This document shows positions 15,724-32,972 of a stretch of 64,000 nt of DNA, piece by piece. A program made the translations under genes and the position numbers. Each line of letters starts with the position of its first letter. Within the stretch, counting starts at the first letter, position 1. The stretch comes from Roseofilum halophilum BLCC-M91. Lineage in GTDB: Bacteria; Cyanobacteriota; Cyanobacteriia; Cyanobacteriales; Desertifilaceae. The notes beneath the pieces were generated by a model. It was not told where the DNA came from, did no database searches, and worked only from the letters and a program-made list of their open reading frames with translations. The stretch lies in NCBI RefSeq assembly GCF_030068445.1, contig NZ_JAQPOK010000041.1, forward strand, positions 1 to 64,000, in the 5' to 3' direction.

Positions 15724-18700
15724 ATGTGGAAATCCATTACTTCCCTCTGTGTCTTCCTATCCTGTGCAGTACCTGCCTACGCTCAACCCTCAATTACCCC
15801 AGCCCAAGACGCAACCGGAACCCAAGTTACTCCTAGTGGCCCTCAATATCACATCACCGGCGGAACCCAAGCGGGTTCTAATCTTTTCCACAGCTTTCAA
15901 CAGCTCGGTTTAAACCCTGGAGAAGTAGCCAACTTCATTGCTAGGCCCCAGATTCAGAACATTCTCGGTCGGGTTGTGGGGGGTGAAGCGTCCCTGATAA
16001 ACGGCCTCATTCAAGTCGTTGGAGCTAATGCCAACCTCTATCTGATGAACCCTGCGGGCATCATTTTCGGGCCCAACGCCCAGCTCAACGTCCCCGCAGA
16101 CTTCACTGCCACCACCGCAACGGCGATCGGATTTGGTCATGATACCTGGTTTAATGCCCAAGGAGACAACACTTACGCCAACTTAATCGGTACGCCCCGT
16201 GAATTCCAATTTCCCTACCATAATCCCGGCACAATCATCAACGAAGGCAACTTAACCGTTAATCCCCAACAACAGCTCACCCTCCTCGGCGGAACCACCA
16301 TTAACCTCGGAACCCTAGAAGCACCTGGCGGAAAAATCACCATTGCCGCCATTCCCGGCGAGCAAGTTGTCCGTATTTCCCAAGAAGGCCATTTACTCAC
16401 CCTAGATTTACCCTTATCCGCAACACCCACAACCGAAGAAAACCCCATTCAACCCGCTTCACTACCGGAATTAATTACCGGCGGTTTTGTCAGTCATGCC
16501 AGCCAACTCCAGGTTAATCAACACGGACAAGTTGAATTAACCGGCAGTGGCATCACCTTACCCCCACCAAGCGGACTCAATATTACATCAGGCAGCCTAG
16601 GGGTTTCGGGAAATGAAGGGGGAGAAATTCAGATTTTAGGCGAACAAATAGGAGTCATTGATGGCAACATTAATGCATCTGGCATCAATAGCGGTGGTGA
16701 AATTTTTATTGGTGGAGATATCCAAGGACAAGGCATTTTACCCAACGCCTCCCGCACCTTTATCAGCCCAGATTCCGTTATTTCTGCCGATGCCCTAGCA
16801 GAAGGCAATGGCGGACAAATCATCATTTTTGCCGAAGAAACCGCCAGGATATACGGAACCCTGAGCGCCAGAGCCGGGCAAATTTCCGGCAACGGCGGCT
16901 TCATCGAAACCAGTGGCTTACAGTCCTTAGACCTCAGCCAAACCCCTGATACTTCCGCCCCCTTTGGCGAGGGGGGCACATGGTTAATCGATCCCTATAA
17001 TGTGGAGATTGTTCCAGCAGGGTTTGGAAGTAGTAATATTAACAGCACCAATCCCTTTTCCCCCACGGGAGATTCCGCAAAATTAGAAGTTGGCTTACTT
17101 ATAGATGCCTTAAAAAACAGCTCAAACGTTGAAATCATCACAGGAACTGGAGGCACTCAACTCGGTGATATCACCTTATCCACTGACTTAGATTTTAATG
17201 GCATTGGCAATAGTTCCTTAACCTTAAATGCAGAAGGTGGAATATTTATCAATCGGCCAATTTTTGACAGTAATCTCACTACTCCAGACTCCCTTAATTT
17301 AAACTTCCAAGGTCAGAGTCGATCTGTAACCGTCAATGCGCCTATTTCCACGCAAGGCGGTAATATTAACATGACAGCAGAAAGTAGCGGTAATGGTATT
17401 CATCTAACTGTACCTCTCAACTCTAGTGGTGGAGCCATTCATCTCACAGGAACCAGCGTAGGATCGGGAGATGGAGTATATATTGAAGGGAGTGCGAGTA
17501 TTGACTCTGGAGGAGGAGACATTAACATTGAGGCAGCCACAGCTACAGGTGGCACTGCCTTAAATGTTCAAGCTCCCATTAGTGCTGGCACGGGTAACAT
17601 CAGCCTTATTTCTGATTTACCCTCTATTAACAATAAAATTTCCGGCATGGGTGATTTACTGATCCGACCTCAAAATCCAAATGCCACCATTTTTCTCGGC
17701 CCAAATTTATCCGCACCATTCTTTAGTTTGAGCCAAGGAGAACTTGCCCAACGGATTGATATTTCAGGAACTGTCACCATTGAAAATAACAGCACGATTA
17801 ATATTTCAGCCTTAGATCTCAACAATAGCAGCAACCCTGCTCCTGCACGACAATATACCTTAATCCTCCAAGGACAAACCCTAAATTTTAACAACACTCT
17901 AATCTTAAGTCCCAATCAAAACGGACAATTCATTGCCACTGGAAGTATTTTAGATAGCTCCCCAGTTAATTCGGCAATATTTAATGGCAGGGTTCTTTTA
18001 GATGCCAATACCATCGGCACAGAAGCCGCTCCCCTCTACATTAAAGGCAGTCAACTAGCTGCCATTACTCGTTCTGGCGATCTCTTTCTCGACACCGGTG
18101 ATATCTCCATTAATCCCCCTCAAAATACCGTCAGCACCGTTTCCGGAATTAGCGGTATCCAAAGCGCTGGTCAACTCAACATTCAAGGCAGCCAAAACCT
18201 TAATTTAGATGCAAATTTGACCTCTAATGGAGCCATGACCATTGCTCCACCCTTGAATTTAGTCAATGATATCACCTTAGAAAGTAACGGCGGATTAATT
18301 AATTTAGAGAATACCATTAATGGCAATCAAGACTTAATCCTTAACTCAGGAAGCGTAACCTTTGCTAGTCCTGTCGGCAACACAGCACCCTTAAATAACT
18401 TAACCGTTACTGGAGCAACTCAACTCAATGCAGAGATTACCACCACAGACACCCAAACCTATAATAATTCCGTCCAATTAAACGATAATCTCACCCTCAG
18501 TAGCACCCATACTATCACCTTTGGGCAAACCCTTGATGGCGCTCAAGATTTAACCCTAAATAGTGATAGTATTACCTTTGCAGATGCGGTGGGAAGTATC
18601 GACCCCTTAAATCGTTTAACCGTTAATGGCAATACCAGACTCAATAACACTATTACCACCACCACAGCCCAAATCTATAATGGTTTAGTGCAATTGGATC

Positions 18701-21700
18701 ACTCGGTAATTTTGGATAGTGGTAATGGGAATATCAGCTTTGCCAATACAGTTGATGGGGCTGAAGATTTAACCCTTAATAGTGACAATATTACCTTTGG
18801 GGATGAGGTGGGCAGTATCGACCCCTTAAATCAGTTAACCCTGAATGGAAACACGACCCTCAATGGCAATATTACCACAACTGGAGCGCAAGCCTATAAC
18901 GGCTTAGTGGAATTAAATAACTCGGTTATTTTAGACAGTAGTGGCGCTAATATTACTTTTTCTGATGCAGTGTCTGGCGCTCAGGATTTAAACGTTAATG
19001 GGGGCGAAATCAACTTTTCTAATCCGGTGGGAAGTCCTAACCCTTTAACCAGTTTAACCCTGAATGGAAATACGACCCTTAATGGCAATATCACCACAAC
19101 CGGAGCGCAAACCTATAACGGTTCAGTTCAATTGAATAATAACTCGATCTTACAGAGTGGCAATGGGGATATTACCTTTGAAGGGACGGTTGATGGAACC
19201 CAAAATTTTAAGTTAGATGCGGGGACAGGAAATATTACTTTTAATGGACAAGTCGGCAGTACAAATCCCTTAGCTGATTTCACCCTGGAGAGTACGGGAT
19301 TAACCCAAATTAACGATACGGTGAATGCCAGTCAAATCAGGACAAATGCAGGGGGAACGACTGAAGTTAATGGAGATATCACTACGACAGGAGAGCAGGT
19401 TTATAATAATCCCGTTATTTTAGGCAATAGCATTACCTTCAGAACCGATAATAGTAATCTTACCTTTGACAATACGGTTGATGGCACAACCGCAGGAGCG
19501 CAAAACTTAACGGTAGAAACGGGTACAGGTAGCCTGAGAGGGTTTGGTGCAGTGGGGAATTCGGTTCCCCTCGGTGACATTACTTTAATTGCTGATGACA
19601 TGAGTTTTGACAGTTCCCTGGCTGGTACGGGGACTCTAACCCTGGAACCGTTCAGCAATACGCAAAATATTCGACTGGGAGGAACGGATAATAATGACCC
19701 GAATACTTTAGAGTTAAGTGCTACGGATATTCAAGGGTGGCAAAATGGATTTCAGTCGATTACTGTGGGACGCAATACTTTATCTGGAGCAATCGTTACT
19801 GAGGGGAATTTAACATTTCAAGACCCGATCGCACTGCAAACGGGATCGAGTATAACGGTAAATGGCACACTGACAGGAGCAGATGATGCTTCCATTGGTT
19901 TAGAGGGTTCTGAAATCAGGTTGAATGCCGATATTACCACAGCGAATAACGATATTAATCTCAATGGTGCAATTAATCTGGGTGCAGATGCAACCCTGAG
20001 TACGGGCACTGGAGAGGGCAATCTCAATATTGCGGGGTCAATTGATGGTAATGCGGGACTCACTTTAGAATCGGGTACGGGAGAGATTAGCCTCAATGGT
20101 AATATCGGTGAAATTAACCCGTTAAATCGTTTAAATATTCAAGGTAATGTGACGACAGGGGCGAATGGTTCATCTATTACTACTGTTAATGATATAACGA
20201 CAGGAGAGATCAGTACCAGTGGCCAAGCCCTGAGTTTAACCAGCAACCAAGGCAATATTCAAACCGGAGATTTGGATACAGCAGCCATAGGAAGCGGTGG
20301 CAGTCTTACCCTAAGCAGTCCCACTGGTAGCATCACCACAGGAAATCTGACTTCTGCGGGAGATACAGCCGGAGGCGATATTAATGTACAAGCGCAAGTT
20401 TCAATTACGACCGGTGATATTGACTCCAGCGCCACTACAGGAGATGGAGGTTCCGTATTTCTTGACCCCATTGGTAATGTGCAAGTTGGTTTTATTAATG
20501 CTCAGGGAGGAACCGCAGGCACGGGGGGCAATGTATTTGCCGAGTCTACGGGGGGATTTTTCCAATCTACGGGAACATTTGTAGACCAAAATGGGCAAAA
20601 CGCCAGCATATCAACCGCCGGGGGACTTGGTGGGGGAACGATTGAAATTCGTCATCAGGGGGGGACGTTGAATGCACCGATACAACCCTTTGGGGTGGGC
20701 AATGGGGGAGTGAATGGCACTCAAGGGGTGATGACAACGGGAGCGTTTACCCTATCCAATCAAGAGTTTGCCGATTCGTTTACGTTGGGAACCATACGAA
20801 TTGTGACGGATGATGGGGTAATACCGACTGCTGTAACTACTCCGCCAACACGGACTACGGTTCCTTCATCAGTTGTAGTGGAGCCAACGATTGAGCCAAG
20901 TGTGCCCATTACGCCTGTACCCACGCCAAGGGTTTCTATTCCTTTGATTCCTACAGAAAGTCCTTCTATTTCCGAGTTTCCCCCGCCAACTCCCTCTAGT
21001 TCTGGTGGTGATGGTGGGGGTAATGGTGGGAATGGTAGCGGTAATGGGGGTGGTGCTGCTGTTGCTGTTCCTCCGTCGGCGTTGCCAGTAGTCGGGGTTG
21101 CTGTTTCTGAGGAGGAAGGTTCAGATGATGGTGTGGGGAGTGCGGTGAATGCGGTGTTACTGGGACGGGAGAATGGGGCGCAACCCATGGTGATTTCTAC
21201 AGATGAGGTAAGTTTAGATCAAACCATCGCCGCTTTGGAAGCTCAATTTACCCGTGAATATGAGGTGTATTTGGGTTTGGAGAATAATACGCGGATTTTG
21301 CAGTTGCGGGAAATTCAGAGTTGGTTAGAGGAAGCGAGTCAAGCGCCTGTAAACACTGGGTTGATTTATGTGGTGTTTGGTCGTCGGCAGTTGGAAGAGA
21401 ATGCGGCGCTGGTATGTCCGGTTCCCACTGCTGTAGAGGTAGAAGGGGCCCGGCAACCCCCCGCTTGTCTGCCCCATCCAGAGGATACGTTGCATTTGAT
21501 TTTGGTTACGGCGAATGAGGAGCCGATGCAAGTGGATTTTCCAGAGGTGAAGCGGGAGGAGGTGATGGCGCTGGTGAATGAGTTGCGTCAGGAGGTGACG
21601 AATCAGTTTAAGTTGCGAACGACGAGTTATTTGCCACCAGCGCAGAGGTTGCATGAATTGCTGATTGAGCCATTGGAATCGACGTTAGAGGAGCAGGGGA

Positions 21701-22509
21701 TTGAGACGCTGGTGATGATTCCGGATAGGGGACTGAGGTCTTTGCCAATGGCGGTTTTGCATGATGGGGAGCAGTTTTTGATGGAGAAGTATAGTTTGGG
21801 GTTGGTTCCCAGTTTTAGCCTGACGTTGCCAGAGTATCGGAGTTTGCAGGGGGTGGAGGTTTTGGCTATGGGGGCTTCGGAGTTTGAGGACATGCCGCCT
21901 TTACCTGCTGTGCCGGTGGAGTTGCGAGAAATTGGGGGGGAGGATGCGTTTCTGAATGAGGGGTTTACGATAGAGAATTTGCGGGCAGGGCATCAGACGG
22001 GGCGGTTTCCGATTGTTCATTTGGCGACTCATGCGGATTTCCAAGAGGGCGCTCCAGAGAATTCGTTTATTCAGTTGTGGGAGTCGCAGATTCAACTGCC
22101 GGAGATGAGGGGGTTGGACTGGGGGAATCCTCCTGTGGATTTGTTGACGTTGAGTGCTTGTCGAACGGCGATAGGGAATGAGGAGGCGGAGTTGGGGTTT
22201 GCAGGGTTGGCGGTGATGTCTGGGGCTAGGTCGGCTTTGGCGAGTCTTTGGTACAGTAGCGATGTGGGCACGTTGGCGCTGATGAGTAAGTTTTATGACC
22301 AGTTGGAGTCTGCGCCGACTCGTGGGGAGGCTCTGCGTCGGGCGCAGTTGGCGATGTTGGAGGGTGAGGTGAGTTTGGATGGGGGACAGTTGCGGGGAAC
22401 GAGGGGACAGGGGGGGATTACTTTGCCGAAGGAGTTGGCTCAGGGGAGTGTGTCTTTTTCCCATCCCTATTATTGGGGAGCGTTTACGATGATTGGTACG
22501 CCTTGGTGA
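15724..22509 (+). CDS. Secreted haemagglutinin-like (TpsA-type) protein with C-terminal CHAT protease domain
   Basis: A 2261-residue protein. A signal peptide (residues 1-20, ending AYA) leads into a filamentous-haemagglutinin TPS domain (about 25-170) with GVANxx-like, INGLIQVVGANANLYLMNP and GIIFGPNA motifs. Long beta-helix-type repeats follow, including four or five 73-residue repeats at about 867-1230. A Gly-rich linker lies near 1760-1780. The C-terminal region (about 1985-2255) is a CHAT caspase-like domain with DRGLRSLPMAVL, the catalytic His H2103 in HLATHA and Cys C2146 in LSACRTA. The N-terminus predicts two-partner secretion; no TpsB transporter is in the window. The CHAT domain implies surface or secreted proteolysis, by inference. 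A hairpin terminator follows. Confidence 0.92.
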   Translation: MWKSITSLCVFLSCAVPAYAQPSITPAQDATGTQVTPSGPQYHITGGTQAGSNLFHSFQQLGLNPGEVANFIARPQIQNILGRVVGGEASLINGLIQVVGANANLYLMNPAGIIFGPNAQLNVPADFTATTATAIGFGHDTWFNAQGDNTYANLIGTPREFQFPYHNPGTIINEGNLTVNPQQQLTLLGGTTINLGTLEAPGGKITIAAIPGEQVVRISQEGHLLTLDLPLSATPTTEENPIQPASLPELITGGFVSHASQLQVNQHGQVELTGSGITLPPPSGLNITSGSLGVSGNEGGEIQILGEQIGVIDGNINASGINSGGEIFIGGDIQGQGILPNASRTFISPDSVISADALAEGNGGQIIIFAEETARIYGTLSARAGQISGNGGFIETSGLQSLDLSQTPDTSAPFGEGGTWLIDPYNVEIVPAGFGSSNINSTNPFSPTGDSAKLEVGLLIDALKNSSNVEIITGTGGTQLGDITLSTDLDFNGIGNSSLTLNAEGGIFINRPIFDSNLTTPDSLNLNFQGQSRSVTVNAPISTQGGNINMTAESSGNGIHLTVPLNSSGGAIHLTGTSVGSGDGVYIEGSASIDSGGGDINIEAATATGGTALNVQAPISAGTGNISLISDLPSINNKISGMGDLLIRPQNPNATIFLGPNLSAPFFSLSQGELAQRIDISGTVTIENNSTINISALDLNNSSNPAPARQYTLILQGQTLNFNNTLILSPNQNGQFIATGSILDSSPVNSAIFNGRVLLDANTIGTEAAPLYIKGSQLAAITRSGDLFLDTGDISINPPQNTVSTVSGISGIQSAGQLNIQGSQNLNLDANLTSNGAMTIAPPLNLVNDITLESNGGLINLENTINGNQDLILNSGSVTFASPVGNTAPLNNLTVTGATQLNAEITTTDTQTYNNSVQLNDNLTLSSTHTITFGQTLDGAQDLTLNSDSITFADAVGSIDPLNRLTVNGNTRLNNTITTTTAQIYNGLVQLDHSVILDSGNGNISFANTVDGAEDLTLNSDNITFGDEVGSIDPLNQLTLNGNTTLNGNITTTGAQAYNGLVELNNSVILDSSGANITFSDAVSGAQDLNVNGGEINFSNPVGSPNPLTSLTLNGNTTLNGNITTTGAQTYNGSVQLNNNSILQSGNGDITFEGTVDGTQNFKLDAGTGNITFNGQVGSTNPLADFTLESTGLTQINDTVNASQIRTNAGGTTEVNGDITTTGEQVYNNPVILGNSITFRTDNSNLTFDNTVDGTTAGAQNLTVETGTGSLRGFGAVGNSVPLGDITLIADDMSFDSSLAGTGTLTLEPFSNTQNIRLGGTDNNDPNTLELSATDIQGWQNGFQSITVGRNTLSGAIVTEGNLTFQDPIALQTGSSITVNGTLTGADDASIGLEGSEIRLNADITTANNDINLNGAINLGADATLSTGTGEGNLNIAGSIDGNAGLTLESGTGEISLNGNIGEINPLNRLNIQGNVTTGANGSSITTVNDITTGEISTSGQALSLTSNQGNIQTGDLDTAAIGSGGSLTLSSPTGSITTGNLTSAGDTAGGDINVQAQVSITTGDIDSSATTGDGGSVFLDPIGNVQVGFINAQGGTAGTGGNVFAESTGGFFQSTGTFVDQNGQNASISTAGGLGGGTIEIRHQGGTLNAPIQPFGVGNGGVNGTQGVMTTGAFTLSNQEFADSFTLGTIRIVTDDGVIPTAVTTPPTRTTVPSSVVVEPTIEPSVPITPVPTPRVSIPLIPTESPSISEFPPPTPSSSGGDGGGNGGNGSGNGGGAAVAVPPSALPVVGVAVSEEEGSDDGVGSAVNAVLLGRENGAQPMVISTDEVSLDQTIAALEAQFTREYEVYLGLENNTRILQLREIQSWLEEASQAPVNTGLIYVVFGRRQLEENAALVCPVPTAVEVEGARQPPACLPHPEDTLHLILVTANEEPMQVDFPEVKREEVMALVNELRQEVTNQFKLRTTSYLPPAQRLHELLIEPLESTLEEQGIETLVMIPDRGLRSLPMAVLHDGEQFLMEKYSLGLVPSFSLTLPEYRSLQGVEVLAMGASEFEDMPPLPAVPVELREIGGEDAFLNEGFTIENLRAGHQTGRFPIVHLATHADFQEGAPENSFIQLWESQIQLPEMRGLDWGNPPVDLLTLSACRTAIGNEEAELGFAGLAVMSGARSALASLWYSSDVGTLALMSKFYDQLESAPTRGEALRRAQLAMLEGEVSLDGGQLRGTRGQGGITLPKELAQGSVSFSHPYYWGAFTMIGTPW
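18322..19413 (+). repeat. 219-bp coding repeats in the haemagglutinin-like gene
   Basis: Equivalent points recur at 18322, 18538, 18757, 18976 and 19195: one 216-bp step, then three exact 219-bp steps (73 codons). Each unit contains a (G)xQDLTLNS...VGS...PLNxLT(L/V)NGNTTLN...ITTTGAQ(T)YN pattern. Constant unit length with drifting sequence indicates tandem duplication of a beta-helix rung block. Confidence 0.9.
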
Positions 22510-28934: not shown

Positions 28935-31900
28935 TCACTCCATGGCTCCATTGGCTTGAAGGGTAGAGATCGCGGCTGGAGTTAAGCCTTCAATTTCGGC
29001 AATCTTCATCTCTGCATAGGGACGTGCTACCCGCAGGGTGTTCATCAATGCTCCCTGGTTCACATCCCAGAGTTTAATCGTCTCGTCTTCGCTGCCACTG
29101 GCTAAGGTGGTAGCGTTGGCACTCAAGGAGAGCGATCGCACCCCTTCGTTATGTCCAGTTAAGGTATGCAGGCAGTTCCCGGTGTTTGGATTCCAGATTT
29201 TGATGGTGCGATCGCTGCTCCCACTGGCTAAAATTGCTCCATCTTGACTCATCGCTAACGCATGAACCCAATGATGATGAGCGGGCAACGTCTGCAAGCA
29301 GTCCCCCGTTTCCCAATTCCAGAGCCGCACCGTAGTATCATCACTACCACTGGCTACAATTGATCCTTGCGAACTCGCAGCCAAAGACCCCACCCAATCC
29401 TGATGTCCGGTTAAAATGCTCAGGCATTCCCCCGTTTGCAGATTCCAGAGGCGAACGGTCAGATCGTCGCTGCCGGTTGCCAGCACTTCCCCATTGCCAC
29501 TGAAGGCTACCGTGCGCGTGGGGCGAGTATGTTCCTCGAATGTATACAAACACTCCCCCGTATGGGTATTCCAAACCCTAGCCGTTTCATCCCCGCTTCC
29601 CGTGGCTAGAAGTTTCCCATCGGGGCTGAAGCGCACGCACCAAATGGCATCTTCATGACCGGTGAATGTGCGAAGTAAGCGCCCCGTACTCACTTCCCAT
29701 AACTTCACCATGCGATCGCCGCTCGAACTGGCCAAAAGCTGACCATCCGGACTAAAATCCACCGATTGCACCGTAGCCAAGTGACCTGCCAACGTCTTCA
29801 AGCATTCCCCGGTTTTCACGCACCAGAGCCGCACCATACGGTCTAAACTACCACTAGCCAACAGTTGACCATCCGGACTCAAGGCTACCCCCCAAATCCA
29901 ATTGGTGTATCCCTGCCAAGATTTTTGGCACTTTCCCGTCCGTACATCCCACAGTTTAACAAAATTATTGACGCTGCTACTAGCCAGGGTTTTGCCCCCA
30001 TCATGGGGATTAAAAGCTACTTGCCAGATCCAGTTGGTATGGCCGTATAAAACATGCAGGAGTTCCCCCGTACCCACATCCCAGATAACAATGGTTTTAT
30101 CATCGCTTCCACTGGCTAAAAGATTGCCATCGGGACTAAAGGCTACGGAATGCACCCCATTCTGGTGTCGGTGCAGGGTTTGCAAGCAGTCCCCCGTGTC
30201 CACATCCCAGAGCTTGACGGTGCGATCGTCACTGCTGCTGGCCAGCAGATGACCGTGGGGACTAAATGCTACCGACCACACCCAATTCTCATGACCTTCT
30301 AACACCTTCACCTCGCCGGTTTCTCGATCCCACAGGCGGATGGTCATGTCATTACTACTACTGGCGATCAGGTCACTTTCTTGGCTCAAGGCGACACAAC
30401 ACACCCCTTCCGTATGACCGGTGAAGGTATGCAGACATTGGGGCTGTTCGGGGTGGGAAAGACTCCAAAGTTTCACTAAGCGATCGGCTGCTCCGGTGGC
30501 TAAATTTTGACTATCGGCACTAAAAACCACGGAGCGCACGGTTTCTTGATGCTCTGTTAAGGTGGCAATACAGTCCCCATTGGAGAGATCCCAGAGTTTT
30601 ACGGTTTTATCGGCGCTGCCACTGGCTAAAAGATTACCATCGGGACTAAAAGCGATGGAGCGCACCCAACCTTGATGACCTTGAATGGTTAAGAAGGGTT
30701 GACTGTCGTCGAATCCCCAAAGGCGAATGGCTCCATAGCCATCACCGATCGCCACTAATCGTTCTTTAGGGCTAACGGCGAGGCAAAAAACGGGGCCGAA
30801 GACATCGGTAAATACGGAGCCAACAAAGTGACATTGGCTAAAGTCGGTGTGGTTGAGGTTGTGTCCTTTGAGGTAGGCTTGGCGGATGGGGAGTTGGGAA
30901 AAGTTGGTATGGGAGAGGTTGATTTTCAGTTGACAGAGGAGGTTGATCAGGTTGCCAGCAGCGTATCCGAGAAATTTGGGGTTGGTAGGGGCGGGTTTGA
31001 AACCCGCCCCTACGCGCAATTTGTGTAAAAATTGTTCGATCCAGGGGCGGGGATTTTGCAGGTCGATGAGGTTCGTCAGGTAGTCGGCAATGGGTTGGAG
31101 AATCAGGCGGATTTGACTTTCGCGCACGTAGTCTTTGGCGGTGGCTTTGATCAGAGCATGGCTGTTGAAGAGGTTGAGATTTCCGGTTTGCAGTTCGGTG
31201 CAGATTTCTTGGATGAAGCGGTTGGTGAGGTATTCCATCACCACGTTTTGCAGGGTGGTGGTGATGGGGGTAAGACTGCTGGAAATGGATTCAACCAGCG
31301 ATCGCCCCACTAAAGAGTATAGAATTTCGATTAGTTGGCGGCGATCGGGCTGTAGGGGTTGCCCCATCATGTCTTCTTGCAGGGTTTCTGGGGTGACGGG
31401 TTCCCGGTTGATGGCTAACCAATAGAGGATATGTTGTTCTGGGAGGGAGAGGCGCTGCCATTGTTGATCGAGGACTTCGCAGACATCCTGAATGGCGATC
31501 GCCTCCCCACGGTTTAAGTAGTTTGCCGCACTCCCCCCATACAGCTCCTGAATGCGAGTGGCAATCAGTTTCAGCACCAGGGGATTCCCATTGCAAGAGT
31601 CCGTGAGTTGCTGGTTCACTGTGGCACTTGCATCCAAACCCTTAGCTTTCAGAATCTCCGCAATTGCCCCCTCATCTAACCCCTGTACTTTCCACACCCT
31701 CACCGGTAATTTTGGCCCTTGCAGCGCGTTAATCGCCTTCGGTTTTTCCCGACTGGTGAGCATTAAGCAGCCTTGATGCTCCGTTTCCCCCAACCGCGTC
31801 AGGAAATCGCCATAATCCTCATATCCTGGGCGATAGCGTCCGGCAGTCGTTTGCGGTTGCAGAATGGCTTCCACATTATCAAAGACCATCAAACAGCGAT

Positions 31901-32972
31901 GTTCCTTCAGATGGTCAATCAGTTGGGTAATTCTGCGGTGGATGGGGACATCTTCTGGGTTGTCCGGTTCATAGTTGAACAACTGGTTGATTTCGTCGAG
32001 CATCTCGCTCAAAGGAGGAGCTTCTCGCAAGGAGCGCCAAATAATGGCTTCAAAGTCCCCAGCGACTTCCTGGGCGAGTTTCACCGACAGGGCGGTTTTG
32101 CCAATTCCCCCAATACCTAACAGCACCAGCACCCGACAGCGATCTTGGGTAATCCAGGTTTGCAGGGTGTCTAGTTCGTCGTTGCGTCCATGGAAAATGG
32201 AGACATCGGGCGCTTCTCCCCAGTGTTGTTTGTTCGTTTTGGGTGACCTAGGGGCGGGTTCTGTAGGGGCGGGTTTGAAACCCGCCCCTACGTCGGAATG
32301 GGAACCGAAACCCGCCCCTACGTCGGAATGGGAACCGAAACCCGCCCCTACGTCGGAATGGGAACCGAAACCCGCCCCTACGTCGGAATGGGAACCGAAA
32401 CCCGCCCCTACCTGGGAATGGGAACCGAAACCCGCCCCTACAAGGTTGGTTAAGGGCGGAATATTAAGCAATTCCGGCTTGTATTTAAAGAAGATCGGGA
32501 TCAGATAATTTCGTTGAGTCGTGCTATTCCCGCGAATGCCAAATTTGTGATAGATGTTACGGATCTGTTTGCGGATCGTTCCGGGGTTTTTGTTCAGGGA
32601 GGTGGCAATTTCTTCGTCGGTTTGGTTCTGGAGGAAGAGCTGTAAAACCGGTTTTTCTTGGGTAGAGAGGCGATCGCAAATTTCCTCAAAGTCTTCTGCA
32701 CTCATGCTCTGGAAGTTCTTCAAGTAGGGAATATTCACCAACTCCGGTTTATATTTGAAAAATAGAGCAACCAGAAAAAAGCGCCCTCTCCTACGCCCAT
32801 CATCTTTCTTGATGCCAAAAGAGTGATAAATACCGCGCCGAATTTTCTGCACATCTGATTTATTACTGGCTACCGTCGTAGCGATTTCCCGATTATTAAG
32901 CAATTCGTGCAAAACTTGCCGCTCTGTAGGGTTGAGTCCTGCGAGTATGCGATCGAACTGCTGTTGATTCAT
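28935..32972 (-). CDS. STAND NTPase with tandem HTH domains and 14 WD40 repeats
   Basis: A 1345-residue protein. Two homologous HTH units (about 8-80 and 95-172) each end in an FFKYKPEL-x-NIP motif. A repeat-derived linker of VGAGFGSHSD units follows (about 177-241). An NB-ARC/NACHT-type NTPase comes next (Walker A GIGGIGKTAL near 287, Walker B CLMVFDNVE, a TSRE sensor-like motif), then a helical region with pentapeptide-like LSHTNFSQ and LNHTDFSQ. From about 726 there are 14 WD40 repeats, enough for two seven-bladed propellers. STAND proteins are ligand-triggered switches in signalling, programmed death or anti-phage defence. The HTH pair suggests DNA binding instead of a nuclease effector. 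Function is inferred. Confidence 0.9.
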   Translation of the reverse strand: MNQQQFDRILAGLNPTERQVLHELLNNREIATTVASNKSDVQKIRRGIYHSFGIKKDDGRRRGRFFLVALFFKYKPELVNIPYLKNFQSMSAEDFEEICDRLSTQEKPVLQLFLQNQTDEEIATSLNKNPGTIRKQIRNIYHKFGIRGNSTTQRNYLIPIFFKYKPELLNIPPLTNLVGAGFGSHSQVGAGFGSHSDVGAGFGSHSDVGAGFGSHSDVGAGFGSHSDVGAGFKPAPTEPAPRSPKTNKQHWGEAPDVSIFHGRNDELDTLQTWITQDRCRVLVLLGIGGIGKTALSVKLAQEVAGDFEAIIWRSLREAPPLSEMLDEINQLFNYEPDNPEDVPIHRRITQLIDHLKEHRCLMVFDNVEAILQPQTTAGRYRPGYEDYGDFLTRLGETEHQGCLMLTSREKPKAINALQGPKLPVRVWKVQGLDEGAIAEILKAKGLDASATVNQQLTDSCNGNPLVLKLIATRIQELYGGSAANYLNRGEAIAIQDVCEVLDQQWQRLSLPEQHILYWLAINREPVTPETLQEDMMGQPLQPDRRQLIEILYSLVGRSLVESISSSLTPITTTLQNVVMEYLTNRFIQEICTELQTGNLNLFNSHALIKATAKDYVRESQIRLILQPIADYLTNLIDLQNPRPWIEQFLHKLRVGAGFKPAPTNPKFLGYAAGNLINLLCQLKINLSHTNFSQLPIRQAYLKGHNLNHTDFSQCHFVGSVFTDVFGPVFCLAVSPKERLVAIGDGYGAIRLWGFDDSQPFLTIQGHQGWVRSIAFSPDGNLLASGSADKTVKLWDLSNGDCIATLTEHQETVRSVVFSADSQNLATGAADRLVKLWSLSHPEQPQCLHTFTGHTEGVCCVALSQESDLIASSSNDMTIRLWDRETGEVKVLEGHENWVWSVAFSPHGHLLASSSDDRTVKLWDVDTGDCLQTLHRHQNGVHSVAFSPDGNLLASGSDDKTIVIWDVGTGELLHVLYGHTNWIWQVAFNPHDGGKTLASSSVNNFVKLWDVRTGKCQKSWQGYTNWIWGVALSPDGQLLASGSLDRMVRLWCVKTGECLKTLAGHLATVQSVDFSPDGQLLASSSGDRMVKLWEVSTGRLLRTFTGHEDAIWCVRFSPDGKLLATGSGDETARVWNTHTGECLYTFEEHTRPTRTVAFSGNGEVLATGSDDLTVRLWNLQTGECLSILTGHQDWVGSLAASSQGSIVASGSDDTTVRLWNWETGDCLQTLPAHHHWVHALAMSQDGAILASGSSDRTIKIWNPNTGNCLHTLTGHNEGVRSLSLSANATTLASGSEDETIKLWDVNQGALMNTLRVARPYAEMKIAEIEGLTPAAISTLQANGAME
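30985..31013. repeat. GTAGGGGCGGGTTT palindrome inside the STAND gene
   Basis: GTAGGGGCGGGTTT and its exact reverse complement are separated by one G, giving a perfect 29-bp palindrome in the coding sequence, translated as RVGAGFKPAPT. The same element is found between genes elsewhere (55798-55859, 57691-57750, 26104-26161). Confidence 0.95.
32250..32442. repeat. In-frame 30-bp minisatellite derived from the GTAGGGGCGGGTTT element
   Basis: From 32281, 30-bp units starting CCCGCCCCTACGTCGG repeat at 32281, 32311, 32341 and 32371 (identical) and 32401 (variant), ending with a partial unit at 32431. An inverted GTAGGGGCGGGTTT arm precedes at 32263. On the coding strand each unit adds ten residues (VGAGFGSHSD). 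The unit length keeps the frame open. Confidence 0.97.

Follow-up and report, generated by a model that had tools for sequence, protein, structure and literature searches.

A predicted CHAT protease of the separase/Csx29 fold at the C-terminus of a TpsA-type exoprotein in Roseofilum halophilum

Introduction

The locus described here raises the question of what a caspase-like protease domain does at the end of a protein whose beginning resembles that of a secreted adhesin. The site of action of the CHAT proteases characterised so far, Csx29 and HetF, is intracellular or at the cell membrane. Csx29 has pseudo-caspase and caspase halves and an H615-C658 pair (PMC10028731). HetF of heterocyst-forming cyanobacteria carries its CHAT domain N-terminally (aa 1-555), together with TM and TPR segments (PMC8406250), and PatU3 can be cleaved by it (PMC12288457). 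In the 64,000-nucleotide stretch of Roseofilum halophilum BLCC-M91 analysed here (the window), a further cyanobacterial CHAT domain is found that, unlike that of HetF, lies at the C-terminus, on a TpsA-type protein of the two-partner secretion (TPS) system.

TPS and CHAT are each established families, and in public records the label for this CHAT type is simply 'CHAT domain-containing protein'. No open paper was found on CHAT in combination with two-partner secretion and cyanobacteria, or with haemagglutinin and caspase, and the open exoproteome papers examined for CHAT or haemagglutinin contained nothing relevant. The reading favoured below, in which the protein is an exported, tethered separase-like protease perhaps linked to CHASE2/DUF928 sensing, appears reasonably probable from the sequences and structure models taken together. 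If it is true, a large branch of exported CHAT domains on TPS arms would bring caspase-type proteolysis into the cyanobacterial envelope. Most of the cyanobacterial genomes sampled encode TPS-CHAT proteins, with several copies in each, and the hosts include multicellular forms.

Architecture of the TpsA-CHAT gene

The gene (15724..22509, + strand) is an uninterrupted ORF from the ATG at 15724 to the stop at 22509 and encodes 2261 aa. As the preliminary description had stated, this single ORF holds both a TPS secretion domain and a CHAT domain that looks catalytically intact. Residues 1-20 (15724..15783, +) read by inspection as a Sec-type signal peptide (MWKSITSLCVFLSCAVPAYA, followed by Q). 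The TPS secretion domain follows at residues 27-228 (15802..16407, +), where Pfam PF05860 matches at E 5.6e-42 and NCBIfam adhes_NPXG matches residues 55-133 at E 2.8e-21, so that the earlier assignment of a TPS exoprotein N-terminus is borne out.

The beta-rich passenger, residues 229-1695 (16408..20808, +), is without cysteine, shows the lowest conservation within the family, and contains a tandem repeat (18533..19139, +) of 2.8 copies of a 219-bp (73-aa) unit. A beta-rich AlphaFold model of residues 24-503 (pLDDT 85.6) matched the solved secretion domains of EtpA, HMW1, HxuA, haemolysin A and FHA, with E 1.1e-15 for EtpA and 4e-11 for HMW1 (TPS-domain model). The long beta-helix described earlier is thus upheld for its start, while beyond about residue 503, where the model ends, the description stays at a beta-rich passenger. 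TpsA exoproteins such as EtpA, HMW1, HxuA and FHA share with the present protein the fold of the secretion domain, the beta-rich start of the passenger and the presence of TpsB genes in the genome; TPS-CHAT fusions differ from them in having a protease domain at the end, and in most cases no TpsB gene lies next to them.

A hinge at about residues 1697-1787 (20812..21084, +) is first Pro-rich and then Gly-rich; the Gly-rich linker reported before lies at about 1758-1777, within the Pro-rich stretch that starts at about 1697. The CHAT protease module occupies residues 1822-2261 (21187..22506, +), as delimited by an AlphaFold model and fold comparison, with the Pfam CHAT match (PF12770) covering residues 1971-2258 at E 1.5e-59 and 202.2 bits (curated cut-off 24). 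At E<=0.01 the protein gave only CHAT and TPS, with no match to the Peptidase_C14 p20 (orthocaspase/metacaspase) profile, and PADLOC likewise returned no match.

Fold and catalytic competence of the CHAT module

The model of residues 1822-2261, built with an alignment of 85 relatives, reached pLDDT 92.3 and pTM 0.93, and structure comparison by Foldseek and VIA-align gave it the protease fold of Csx29 and separase. The top match was Csx29/TPR-CHAT (7y9x; Z 28.0 over 341 residues), followed by separase (5fby; Z 24.9). Since neither the module nor its profile found anything in the PDB by sequence at E<=1, solved structures are linked to it by fold comparison only. The likeness to the Csx29 of Craspase (type III-E CRISPR) extends over the whole 440-aa module, including both the pseudo-caspase and the active caspase half, and the spacing of 43 between His2103 (22030..22032, +) and Cys2146 (22159..22161, +) equals that of H615 and C658. 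The window protein nonetheless has only 13% identity to Csx29, is without a TPR domain, has no CRISPR gene or Cas7-11 among its scanned neighbours and is predicted to be exported. With eukaryotic separase it shares the two-part pseudo-caspase and caspase fold, and it differs in being bacterial, predicted to be exported and carried on a TpsA arm. Gingipains, which the model matched at Z ~17, are likewise clan CD cysteine proteases and are extracellular; they belong to another family and take another export route, and no prodomain was seen in the window protein.

The two catalytic residues were numbered correctly in the preliminary description. Both fall in invariant alignment columns, in 62 of 62 fusions, and are intact in all 165 CHAT domains of the tree alignment. 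D2180, also invariant in the fusions, might be a counterpart in the S1 pocket of separase D2151 or Craspase K670. Purifying selection acts on the CHAT domain: dN/dS was 0.04-0.14 for CHAT against 0.09-0.38 for the passenger, and was lower for CHAT in each of 11 close pairs. The fold, the invariant dyad and these ratios together support a working enzyme, and the case for protease competence is strong; the module is very likely an active protease, as predicted from its sequence and model.

Some clan CD domains are non-catalytic, and the module could in principle serve here for binding, folding or anchoring. Its model does resemble DdvA, a transmembrane anti-sigma factor (Z 18.6). Such a role is nevertheless very unlikely, given a dyad kept in 165 of 165 domains, the low dN/dS (0.04-0.14), and a catalytic cysteine retained in every case although nearly all other cysteines have been purged.

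Export and the cysteine pattern

The hydrophobic stretch expected of a signal peptide was present in 90 of the 102 complete fusions by a simple heuristic, with AXA as well in 51; the 12 that failed this crude check count against export. The catalytic cysteine is the sole cysteine of the CHAT domain in 104 of 108 fusions, and non-catalytic ones there number four in 35,048 residues. Per 1000 residues this amounts to 0.11, compared with 0.81 cysteines for TPS and passenger together and 9.74 in neighbouring genes. Over the whole secreted part of 102 fusions, in sequences that are related and not independent, the total is one in 55, three in 41 and five in three, and even in three only. This odd total in 99 of 102 arises because the extra cysteines are mostly paired: they form close pairs, with spacings mainly of 4-5, some of 10-37 and one of 60, at many different, non-homologous places (hinge, pre-CHAT, passenger). 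In the window protein, C1898 and C1915 (21415..21468, +), the only non-catalytic cysteines of the mature protein, are proposed to form a disulfide. An odd count would be explained by disulfides plus one free catalytic thiol, as expected outside the cytosol, and the cysteine depletion would be an independent mark of export. The single-cysteine signature also offers a cheap test of protein location that needs nothing but sequence.

It is against this evidence that a protein staying in the cytosol and acting like Craspase or HetF has to be weighed. Csx29 (PMC10028731) and HetF (PMC8406250; PMC12288457) do act within the cell or at its membrane. The signal peptide, the TPS domain, the TpsB genes of the genome, the cysteine depletion with its paired pattern and the signal-peptide-like starts on sister proteins all stand on the other side, and a cytosolic location is extremely unlikely. 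Export, which had been claimed from the outset, is strongly supported, and the window protein is very probably exported. The accompanying premise that CHAT proteases are cytosolic does not hold in cyanobacteria: most standalone CHAT proteins and several TPR-CHATs of this genome begin with signal-peptide-like segments, some CHATs being without one, so that exported CHATs look usual in this group.

The final position of the CHAT domain is a separate matter. Because it passes TpsB last, it may remain in the periplasm rather than sit on the surface; a folded C-terminal protease may block full passage through TpsB, and the surface would then perhaps never be reached.

Eighteen TPS-CHAT proteins carry a family 2 glycosyltransferase domain ahead of the hydrophobic leader and TPS domain (L071, L072, L075, L077, L082, L103, L104, L120, L125, L164, L165, L218, L221, L226, L228, L229, L235 and L236; in L072, Glycos_transf_2 matches at E 8.4e-32). 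An enzyme of cytosolic type here precedes an export leader, which counts against the export reading.

Distribution, relationships and conservation

The fusion is not the exception for which it was first taken. In the 4.85-Mb genome there are 29 CHAT matches, seven TPS domains and four ShlB/TpsB genes, and all but one of the seven TPS domains are in the same ORF as a CHAT domain. Within the class, the same CHAT type was found at E<=1e-40 in 116 of 145 genomes and TPS in 110 of 145, and the best 80 matches listed over GTDB genomes were all cyanobacterial. A set of 108 TPS-CHAT fusions was collected from 103 fetched cyanobacterial loci. In the tree, the CHATs of fusions group with the standalone ones in a single clade (support 95) that excludes the TPR-CHATs, with 27 standalone rows as a subclade; the window CHAT has its nearest neighbour in Laspinema sp. 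D2d. Scattered 'standalone' members were rejected as independent losses of TPS, since several of them could stem from cut contigs or frameshifts, and only the 27-row clade is relied upon.

This distribution bears on self-cleavage, which had been suggested as a role. The CHAT domain could be an in-cis processing protease that cuts the hinge or passenger, maturing the fibre or freeing it from TpsB. Caspase-like peptidases are described as processing domains in polymorphic toxins, usually just before the C-terminal toxin (PMC3482391). A flexible Pro/Gly hinge precedes CHAT here, and in 70 of 102 fusions P, G, S and T make up half or more of the best 60-aa stretch. The CHAT domain ends exactly at the C-terminus in 108 of 108 fusions, however, leaving no cargo to release, and the same CHAT exists as a standalone protein, probably exported, without a passenger. 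Self-cleavage is therefore disfavoured as the main role; cis-processing is unlikely, and ranks second to an exported protease arm acting in trans.

The layout of TPS, repeats and a C-terminal effector also recalls CdiA, and TpsA might deliver CHAT into neighbouring cells as a contact-dependent or polymorphic toxin, with an immunity protein alongside. The likeness lies in a caspase-like C-terminus on a large exported protein, and caspase-like domains are among the C-terminal toxins recorded for other routes (Zhang et al., 2012, PMC3482391); the T5SS row of that survey names HINT as the only protease, and CHAT is not mentioned in the text available. Conservation runs the wrong way for a toxin: mean identity over 88 pairs is 0.79 for CHAT and 0.79 for TPS, and it is the middle that varies (0.57). 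A single CHAT subfamily is used throughout, in place of a variable toxin, and neither an immunity-like gene beside the window gene nor a recurrent small partner among 95 neighbours was found. With CHAT and TPS conserved and no recurring immunity gene, a polymorphic toxin is very unlikely.

Other members of the family have features of their own. Proteins of the standalone clade (e.g. L130:5967-7277 and L139:5708-7033) have one extra cysteine about 150 residues before the catalytic one, at about -265 from the C-terminus, which is absent in nearly all fusions and is a possible redox switch. Tandem TPS-CHAT paralogues occur at L164 (3434-8092 and 8454-12041), and likewise at L165, with identities of 97-100% in TPS, 77-79% in CHAT and about 45% in the middle, which suggests gene conversion of the TPS part. 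One protein, L223:6191-8047, combines a signal-peptide-like start, MORN-like repeats and the same CHAT type.

Genomic context

The scanned neighbours of the window gene encode, by Pfam, a SPOR protein, glutathione-transferase-like and YjeF/NnrD-type proteins, a metallophosphatase (convergent, directly downstream) and purine-synthesis enzymes. The Pfam scan of eight genes gave no bacterial gasdermin hit, and one neighbour among them had no Pfam match at all. A search for a cognate TpsB had been proposed: the genome has four ShlB genes, but the scan of the genes flanking the window gene showed no TpsB; as DUF928 and CHASE2 are missing among them too, the window copy is an orphan. A TpsB gene beside tpsA is common, yet is not known to be required in the TpsA family, so its absence lowers only the claim of an operon.

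Across the family, DUF928 and ShlB are the commonest immediate neighbours (10 each, n=95), both more than 100-fold above a rough background, followed by CHASE2 with three. For 19 of 108 fusions the fetched stretch includes a TpsB gene, and 67 of 108 have none of TpsB, DUF928 and CHASE2 in a fetched stretch that is sometimes short. CHASE2, DUF928 and TPS-CHAT are co-directional and operon-like at five loci (L100, L109, L225, L129 and L103) and adjacent in other arrangements at L125 and L120; the CHASE2 partners have adenylate cyclase or GGDEF-EAL output. DUF928, TPS and this CHAT type also tend to be present or absent together across the 59 genomes compared (Fisher p <1e-7, with no correction for kinship or genome size). 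In the present genome a TPR-CHAT lies alongside DUF928 and CHASE2 (L035), so the link may belong to CHAT proteins generally.

Elsewhere in the genome (G000:C162:4092-4958), a CHASE2 match and a CHAT match lie on the same strand, in open frames that are both 814 aa long, and probably belong to a single receptor-protease protein. Genes for MinD/ParA-type ATPases recur beside this CHAT type (L077:3584-4348, L081:8598-9362 and L239:5052-5813).

Proposed function

Taken as a whole, the earlier interpretation is partly supported. Of the roles suggested there, extracellular proteolysis and signalling may apply, and nothing found in this analysis points to cell death. The favoured reading of an exported, tethered protease can be set out as follows. 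The signal peptide would direct Sec export. The TPS domain would then engage an outer-membrane porin of the TpsB (ShlB) type, whose gene lies elsewhere in the genome, and the beta-rich passenger would be threaded out from N to C. The Pro/Gly hinge would join the passenger to a separase/Csx29-type cysteine protease with the dyad His2103-Cys2146. This protease, outside or still periplasmic, would cut envelope or extracellular proteins in trans, a mode of action that we infer and hold to be moderately likely. Its activity or output would be tied to DUF928 proteins and CHASE2 receptors, whose genes are repeatedly found next to those of TPS-CHAT proteins; this coupling is a tentative proposal, a little short of even, and would provide a testable context for DUF928, a domain of unknown function. 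A wider extension, rather doubtful at present, is an extracytoplasmic caspase/separase-like signalling pathway in filamentous and other cyanobacteria, in which exported CHAT arms would sense contact or damage to the envelope and, together with DUF928 proteins, relay the signal to receptor cyclases of the CHASE2 type (cAMP or c-di-GMP).

Apart from this gene, the window contains a WD40 repeat protein (28935-32972, -) with an in-frame short tandem repeat (VGAGFGSHSD...), which on the opposite strand reads as a repetitive ORF as well (31975-32508, +).
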